In this document: in pieces, positions 50,038 to 51,182 of the stretch
Layout of the letters: every line of letters starts with the position of its first letter
Position numbering within the stretch: the first letter of the stretch is position 1
Assembly (NCBI RefSeq): GCF_900636535.1
Contig: NZ_LR134289.1
Coordinates: 2,108,001 to 2,172,000 of the forward strand
Direction: 5' to 3'
Length of the DNA stretch: 64,000 nucleotides
Origin: Chryseobacterium gleum
GTDB lineage: Bacteria; Bacteroidota; Bacteroidia; Flavobacteriales; Weeksellaceae
Translations under genes and position numbers: made by a program
Notes under the pieces: model-generated
The model's database searches: none
Told to the model about the DNA's origin: nothing
Seen by the model: only the letters and a program-made list of their open reading frames with translations

Positions 50038-50040
50038 TTT

Positions 50041-50075
50041 GATAATTGATAATTGATAATTGATAATTGATAATT
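50041..50075 (+). repeat. Five tandem GATAATT heptamers
   Basis: Exact repeats of GATAATT, all AT except one G per unit. They begin 3 bases after the permease stop. The 36 bases behind them lead to the DnaA-box cluster; an AT-rich unwinding element is a possible role. Confidence 0.9.
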
Positions 50076-50110
50076 GGAAGTTATTGATTGTCTTTTAGAT
50101 CATTTCAGTT

Positions 50111-50141
50111 TTATCCACAACTTATCCACATGTTATCCACA
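50111..50141 (+). promoter_or_regulatory. Three phased consensus DnaA boxes
   Basis: TTATCCACA occurs at 50111-50119, 50122-50130 and 50133-50141, all in the same orientation and spaced exactly 11 bp, about one helical turn. This is the full E. coli consensus. Candidate oriC segment, or a DnaA-controlled promoter, since the third box covers the expected -33 region of the next gene. Confidence 0.75.
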
Positions 50142-50163
50142 GCGCAGATAATTTTAAAAGCCT

Positions 50164-50171
50164 TATCTTTG
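50164..50171 (+). promoter_or_regulatory. -7 promoter element of the cystathionine beta-synthase gene
   Basis: TATCTTTG, 18 bases before the ATG at 50190. No TTG at -33; that area is occupied by the third DnaA box. Confidence 0.6.
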
Positions 50172-50189
50172 CGCCGCATATAAAACATT

Positions 50190-51182
50190 ATGAAATACGC
50201 AAACAATATCCTTGAAACGATAGGTAATACGCCGCTGGTAAAACTTAACAAAGTGTTAGGTGAAGATTTCCCGGCATTAGTATTGGCGAAAGTAGAGACC
50301 TTCAATCCCGGAAACTCCGTAAAGGACAGAATGGCTCTTAAAATGATAGAAGATGCCGAAAAAGACGGCAGATTAAAACCTGGAGGAACCATTATTGAAG
50401 GTACTTCAGGAAATACAGGAATGGGACTGGCACTGGCAGCGATCATCAAAGGCTACAAATGTATTTTTGTAACCAATTCAAAACAGTCAAAAGAAAAATG
50501 TGATATTCTTCGTGCCGTAGGAGCCGAAGTAATCGTTTGTCCTACTGATGTAAAGCCTACTGATCCCCGTTCTTATTATTCAGTTTCAAAAAGGCTGGCT
50601 AAAGAAACGGAAAACGGATGGTATGTCAACCAATATGATAACCTATCTAACAGAGCAGCTCACTATGAATCTACAGCACCGGAAATCTGGGAACAGACTG
50701 AAGGAAAGCTGACTCATTTTGTAGTGGGAGCCGGAACAGGAGGCACCATCACAGGATGCGGAACTTTCTTTAAAGAAAAAAATCCGGAGATTAAAGTAAT
50801 CGGGGTTGACACTTATGGTTCTATTCTGAAAGAATTCCATGAAACAGGTGAACTTCATTATGATCATGCATATACTTATATTACAGAAGGAATCGGGGAA
50901 GATATCATTCCTGAAAATTATGATATGTCTGTGATTGATCACTTTGAAAAAGTAACGGATAAAGACGGTGCTATCTACGCAAGAAAGCTGGCTAAAGAAG
51001 AAGGTATTTTCTGTGGATATTCTGCCGGAAGTGCTATTGCTTCACTGGTTCAGATGAAAGATCAGTTCACTAAAGATGATGTAATTGTAGTTTTACTTCA
51101 TGACCACGGTTCAAGATATGTAGGAAAAATCTACAATGATGAATGGATGAAGGAAATGGGATGGCTGGAAGAAAGTAAATAG
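50190..51182 (+). CDS. Cystathionine beta-synthase-like PLP enzyme
   Basis: 330 aa of the CysK/CBS fold. The PLP lysine is K45 in NPGNSVKDR; GTSGNTGMG binds the cofactor phosphate partner and GAGTGGTITG the phosphate. Residues like EGIGEDIIPENYD agree with the catalytic core of cystathionine beta-synthase rather than O-acetylserine sulfhydrylase. No C-terminal CBS regulatory domains are attached. It may make cystathionine from serine and homocysteine or act as a cysteine synthase; the exact reaction is uncertain. The upstream region has DnaA boxes. Confidence 0.85.
   Translation: MKYANNILETIGNTPLVKLNKVLGEDFPALVLAKVETFNPGNSVKDRMALKMIEDAEKDGRLKPGGTIIEGTSGNTGMGLALAAIIKGYKCIFVTNSKQSKEKCDILRAVGAEVIVCPTDVKPTDPRSYYSVSKRLAKETENGWYVNQYDNLSNRAAHYESTAPEIWEQTEGKLTHFVVGAGTGGTITGCGTFFKEKNPEIKVIGVDTYGSILKEFHETGELHYDHAYTYITEGIGEDIIPENYDMSVIDHFEKVTDKDGAIYARKLAKEEGIFCGYSAGSAIASLVQMKDQFTKDDVIVVLLHDHGSRYVGKIYNDEWMKEMGWLEESK

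Follow-up and report, generated by a model that had tools for sequence, protein, structure and literature searches.

Three DnaA boxes in strict phase in front of an enzyme gene of Chryseobacterium gleum raise the question of whether this locus is a chromosomal origin of replication or a place where DnaA acts on a promoter. The locus lies in the window, by which we mean the whole 64-kb stretch that was analysed, 2,108,001–2,172,000 of a chromosome that is a single contig of 5,606,922 bases. As the first-pass annotation had described, the three boxes are exact TTATCCACA and direct with a start-to-start period of 11 bp, the 2-bp spacers being AC and TG. The TATCTTTG element that it had placed 22 bp past box 3 was confirmed as well (Table 1). 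The box triplet is single-copy in the 5.607-Mb chromosome even when up to 3 mismatches are allowed, with 0 matches in a backwards control, and base composition lets one expect about 2.7e-9 exact triplets per genome. Exact single boxes occur 112 times in the genome, against 69 expected from base composition and 40 in the backwards control. For single boxes with at most one mismatch, the window shows no enrichment (20 versus a shuffle mean of 21.02), so that it is the triplet alone that is remarkable.

Table 1. Positions of the sequence features discussed, counted from the first base of the window.
Feature	Position	Strand	Remarks
Five tandem GATAATT heptamers	50041..50075	+	TRF 50039-50076, 5.4 copies, 100% match
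DnaA box 1	50111..50119	+	exact TTATCCACA; about -65 to -57 relative to the inferred transcription start
DnaA box 2	50122..50130	+	exact TTATCCACA; about -54 to -46 relative to the inferred transcription start
DnaA box 3	50133..50141	+	exact TTATCCACA; about -43 to -35 relative to the inferred transcription start
Bacteroidota-type -7 promoter element TATCTTTG	50164..50171	+	matches consensus TAnnTTTG
Cystathionine-beta-synthase/cysteine-synthase-like PLP enzyme gene, 330 aa	50190..51182	+	Pfam PALP E 2.2e-73

The flavobacterial sigma-A −7 element is described as TAnnTTTG located at −12 to −5 (PMC9723704). Counted from this element, transcription would thus start near 50176. Box 3 would then span about −43 to −35 and lie just upstream of the −33 region that it had been thought to cover. 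For the enzyme gene, hereafter the PALP gene, the best NCBIfam models were CapA cysteate synthase (about 446.5 bits, cut-off 600) and TIGR01137 (431 bits, cut-off 510.25), both scoring below cut-off. We dropped the name CapA cysteate synthase, given the score below 600 and another gene that scores higher. A second PALP enzyme gene at 925,199–926,176 reaches 543.9 bits with the CapA model, which is also below the cut-off of 600.

GC skew does not turn at the triplet locus, as it should at the origin that the annotation had considered there; the turn is found near 3.51–3.52 Mb, about 1.35 Mb away. Within the window, cumulative skew showed a small local rise at 45–52 kb and fell thereafter. Along the chromosome (40 stretches of 20 kb), positive skew extended from 3.64 Mb across the contig end as far as 0.86 Mb. 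Between 0.98 and 3.52 Mb most samples were negative and five weakly positive. Denser sampling placed the change of sign near 3.52 Mb, the signs being mixed to either side. When the stretch from 3.48 to 3.56 Mb was followed in 2-kb steps, the minimum fell at 3.518–3.520 Mb, with a nearly equal value at 3.506–3.508 Mb. A two-arm fit put the origin at 3.52 Mb and the terminus at 0.90 Mb, the triplet locus lying at 2.158 Mb; the SSE was 0.043 for 3.52 Mb, 0.053 for 3.508 Mb and 0.074 for the triplet locus. In 40 bootstraps of the fit, the 5–95% range was 2.6–3.52 Mb with a median of 3.52. Because the signal from 2.0 to 3.5 Mb is weak and of mixed sign, and because the 5% point of the bootstrap lies as low as 2.6 Mb, the position at 3.508 Mb is a strong candidate and no proof. 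The 16S matches (seven hits at six places) lie on the minus strand at 3.11 and 3.36 Mb and on the plus strand at 4.12, 4.13, 4.26 and 4.73 Mb, as expected for an origin between them. Partial matches at 3,364,967–3,365,915 and 4,731,345–4,732,535 scored 860, 824 and 116 bits versus 1504–1516 for full copies; in the stretch with the first of these, 5,000 bases were read as N, which may explain the partial match there; an apparent dip in GC at 3.36–3.38 Mb is an artefact of these same bases.

At the skew turn, a search for further box clusters found nine one-mismatch boxes, none exact, at 3,507,671–3,508,816 (L028, 7671–8816). They are located in rpiB, in the 644-bp rpiB–pgk intergenic region and in the first part of pgk; gidA follows within a few kb, and all three genes were named by eye from translations. 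The C. gleum genome has 8 boxes with at most one mismatch within 1,100 bp upstream of pgk, compared with a shuffle mean of 0.4. Across 26 genomes (C. gleum and 25 relatives) the same region holds 2 to 8 boxes, and at least four in 21 of them, while mononucleotide-shuffle controls had means of 0.2–0.6 and maxima of 1 to 4. The shuffle maximum equals or exceeds the observed number in L265, L277, L278 and L283, five of the 26 loci hold just 2 or 3 boxes, and at three no rpiB match was found. With this the pgk-upstream boxes recur in most of the genomes compared (21/26), whereas the triplet at its gene is confined to 18 of 118 genomes. The rpiB–pgk region at the skew turn is thus probably the oriC of Chryseobacterium, a testable candidate far from dnaA. 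The single DnaA match of the genome lies at the contig start, about 2.1 Mb from rpiB–pgk across the contig end, and such a distance fits the 649-bp oriC with three boxes predicted for Elizabethkingia meningoseptica, which is likewise described as distant from dnaA (PMC8994065). Two other places were considered and rejected as oriC. A five-box cluster at 2.835 Mb gave a poorer skew fit than 3.508 Mb (SSE 0.066 versus 0.053). Beside dnaA, the 800 bp upstream hold no box within one mismatch when the contig ends are joined, and a two-arm fit forced to this place was unacceptable; DnaA autoregulation is hence not evident here either. As regards the triplet together with its heptamers, the skew minimum lies elsewhere, another box cluster is found there, and the heptamers form no unit with the boxes, so that the triplet locus very probably is not oriC.

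What the triplet does instead may be read from its distribution in relatives. The PALP gene is present in 117 of 118 Chryseobacterium genomes (C. gleum included), whereas the triplet, with up to 3 mismatches, occurs in 24 of the 118, at 33 places. Eighteen of these places are at the PALP gene, corresponding to 18 of the 118 genomes with our own counted; in the remaining 100, no match within 3 mismatches was found at this gene. A family sample of 246 genomes yielded the triplet (at most 2 mismatches) in 22 genomes belonging to one of 33 genera and added five more carriers at the PALP gene. The exact triplet stands at the PALP gene in C. culicis, C. rhizoplanae, C. candidae, C. cucumeris, C. indologenes, C. 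aquifrigidense and C. panacisoli, among others. The array is confined to part of Chryseobacterium.

In a PALP gene tree of 30 genomes, 17 of the 18 carriers formed one group with no non-carrier inside (support 92/91). The tree genomes had been picked by the PALP gene alone, and a 17-genome group made up of carriers only counters a pure selection effect. The eighteenth carrier, L232, branches outside this group among unresolved lines, for which reason we do not regard a single gain of the array as settled; that it was gained once and later lost or decayed in some lines is plausible but unproven. In the 12 non-carrier upstream regions that were read, the core promoter looks much like that of carriers. 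The gene can thus have a promoter without the array, and close relatives with and without boxes on a nearly identical core promoter provide a natural comparison.

Among carriers, the boxes are strongly constrained. In 18 aligned carriers, only 4 of 27 box columns vary, whereas all 30 columns of the upstream flank do, as do 98 of 129 fourfold sites in the PALP gene. Mean minor fractions in this alignment fall from 0.037 in box 1 to 0.012 in box 2 and 0 in box 3, the upstream flank having 0.285 and the fourfold sites 0.223. Altered boxes in the 23 carriers follow the same order (7 with a changed box 1, 2 with a changed box 2 and none with a changed box 3), counts that do not represent independent events, as the carriers are related genomes found via their similarity to the triplet. 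This relatedness and the way of finding them make the gradient suggestive of a constraint that rises towards the promoter, and no test of it. Box 3 and the −7 element are 22 bp apart in 23 of 23 carriers. The interval between them is, however, also conserved (minor fraction 0.058 in the 18 carriers); the constant spacing hence weighs less, and part of the constraint may be that of the core promoter. The −7 element is without change in all 18 aligned carriers. A public genome scan found TATCTTTG kept in nine of 10 named carriers, some of which duplicate genomes among the 23, and TATCTTTA in C. candidae.

Conservation and position together support the annotation's other proposal, DnaA-linked control of the cystathionine beta-synthase-like gene, with box 3 shifted away from −33. 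We consider it fairly probable that the triplet is a promoter-linked DnaA-binding array outside oriC that modulates transcription of this gene. DnaA would most likely nucleate on the invariant, promoter-proximal box 3 and form a short oligomer that reaches over boxes 2 and 1, the 11-bp period placing the boxes on one helix face. From this site, about −43 to −35 and further upstream and thus just outside the −7 element, DnaA would alter transcription depending on its amount or ATP state. Judged from position alone, activation is slightly favoured over repression. We infer DnaA as the binder, the formation of an oligomer, the effect on transcription and its sign. In more general terms, the array is conserved within a lineage and probably belongs to a known kind of site, either a promoter under DnaA control or a place where DnaA binds.

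Known systems offer partial analogies. The E. coli oriC arrays R5M-tau2-I1-I2 and C3-C2-I3-C1 also have sites exactly 2 bp apart, and this separation is described to put DnaA on the same face and to support cooperative filling (PMC4451416). These are low-affinity sites inside oriC, in contrast to the three consensus sites at a promoter in Chryseobacterium, about 1.35 Mb from its putative oriC. In B. subtilis, several boxes are found outside oriC upstream of genes like sda and ywlC, where DnaA is a transcription factor or is held (PMC4447404, PMC5295017, PMC13220808); sda is activated by it, while several promoters appear to be repressed (PMC4447404). Unlike the B. subtilis clusters, the Chryseobacterium array has three direct boxes at 11 bp, belongs to another gene and phylum and is restricted to part of one genus.

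As the main rival, the array could be a reservoir that titrates DnaA without meaningfully affecting the gene beside it, which we hold to be unlikely though worth serious consideration. The exact consensus of the boxes would suit titration, and B. subtilis has six clusters whose joint deletion advances initiation (PMC5295017, PMC13220808). A second, looser tandem box array recurs within the genus at a DUF2490/TonB-receptor locus. In C. gleum it has two exact boxes at 11 bp and an in-phase TTTTCCACA at 4,530,346–4,530,387 (L046, 10346–10387). Of the 15 triplet places away from the PALP gene, 13 were inspected, and 12 have a DUF2490 or TonB-receptor gene in the flank, one of them assigned through L300; L248 has neither, and the flank at L257 holds only the end of a TonB-receptor gene about 1.1 kb from the array. 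This second array also occurs in genomes without the one at the PALP gene, for example G082 and G084. In nine loci, the distance from its first box to the presumed start codon of the DUF2490 gene downstream ranges from 219 to 345 bp, a variation that suits titration more than promoter control. Also in line with a reservoir, another intergenic region (2,835,067–2,835,531; L044, 15067–15531) holds five exact TTATCCACA boxes in both directions, the most per place among the matches listed. Pure titration would, however, lead one to expect neither the gradient of altered boxes nor the constant 22-bp spacing at the PALP gene, and it is mainly the gradient towards the promoter for which we prefer promoter control over passive titration. 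Elsewhere in the chromosome, three exact boxes are found on the minus strand within 305 bp at 2,726,249–2,726,553, spaced 117 and 179 bp.

PhoB-type operators typically consist of direct repeats at one helical turn (11 bp) abutting the −35 region. The triplet could accordingly be the operator of another regulator, such as a response regulator of the OmpR/PhoB type, whose motif equals the DnaA box by chance. The operators of this type resemble the triplet in having 11-bp direct repeats next to the −35 region; the Chryseobacterium repeat differs in being the DnaA consensus, which it matches exactly three times. We regard this reading as improbable. The pattern TTWTYMACA, DnaA-box-like and not a Pho-type motif, occurs as pairs at the triplet spacing at two loci only in the C. 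gleum genome, few for a response-regulator regulon.

Box variants likewise point to DnaA. Three of the five variant boxes seen in carriers, TTATTCACA, TTATCTACA and TTATCAACA, are also found at the putative oriC upstream of pgk in these genomes; TTACCCACA is absent from these putative oriC boxes, and TTACCAACA, having two mismatches, falls outside the pgk-upstream count with its limit of one mismatch. Among the 132 pgk-upstream boxes, TTTTCCACA is the commonest (55), and exact TTATCCACA accounts for 8. In public genomes, at least 48 of 118 exact-triplet loci among the matches listed contain dnaA within the locus (up to 8 kb; tblastn at E 1e-8 with C. gleum DnaA as query), a lower figure because triplet loci are cut by contig ends; in other genomes, this box geometry is thus a mark of origins. 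Ten of the 118 loci among the matches listed are Chryseobacterium loci with the PALP gene. Domain IV of C. gleum DnaA aligns along the solved E. coli DnaA domain 1j1v, with the signature ggkdhstv versus ggrdhttv.

For promoter control by DnaA, we may speculate on a wider role. DnaA targets outside oriC are known in the cited literature from E. coli and B. subtilis (PMC4447404, PMC5295017, PMC13220808), and titles and abstract openings in the open-access literature named none in Bacteroidetes or Chryseobacterium. Tentatively, and with more doubt than for promoter control itself, one Chryseobacterium lineage may have gained a phased three-box array abutting the core promoter and so have brought a sulphur-amino-acid-type PLP enzyme under direct regulation by DnaA. 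With the DUF2490/TonB array added, this would make up a small, undescribed set of Bacteroidota DnaA targets tying a metabolic gene to the replication cycle.

A locus like E. coli datA or DARS, which would switch the nucleotide state of DnaA (by exchange or hydrolysis, with IHF or Fis as partners) and time initiation, is a very improbable reading. Like those loci, the triplet is a DnaA-box locus away from oriC (PMC5295017) with multiple strong boxes, and it lies mid-replichore, separated from the putative oriC by about 24% of the chromosome. It has only three boxes, all direct, unlike datA with its five, and no array was found at the PALP gene in most of the genus. The chromosomal place moreover belongs to the gene itself: the PALP gene lies 0.23–0.31 of the chromosome from pgk, on either side, in 21 of 25 genomes (fractions for which the sizes of the other genomes were rounded). 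Carriers and non-carriers alike have this place, and we rejected it as a sign of a timing locus.

A chromosomal or auxiliary origin at the triplet locus is hardly tenable: strong boxes do adjoin an AT-rich repeat and the bootstrap of the skew fit has a broad lower tail, but the skew turn and the better candidate at 3.508 Mb, 16S strands that fit an origin between 3.36 and 4.12 Mb, the 100 genomes lacking the array at this gene and the dissociation of heptamers from boxes all speak against it. The five GATAATT units are present as the annotation had noted, with a gap to box 1 of 35 bp, not 36. Coupling of an AT-rich unwinding element to the boxes was examined for these heptamers: in the 30 genomes closest by gene, C. 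gleum included, two or more tandem heptamers accompany the array in 8 of its 18 carriers and are missing in the other 10, while 1 of the 12 genomes without the array has them. One further GATAATT array lies at 2,472,967 of the C. gleum genome, with no exact box within 6 kb among the matches listed. The heptamers look like an ordinary simple repeat, separable from the boxes and no partner of them.
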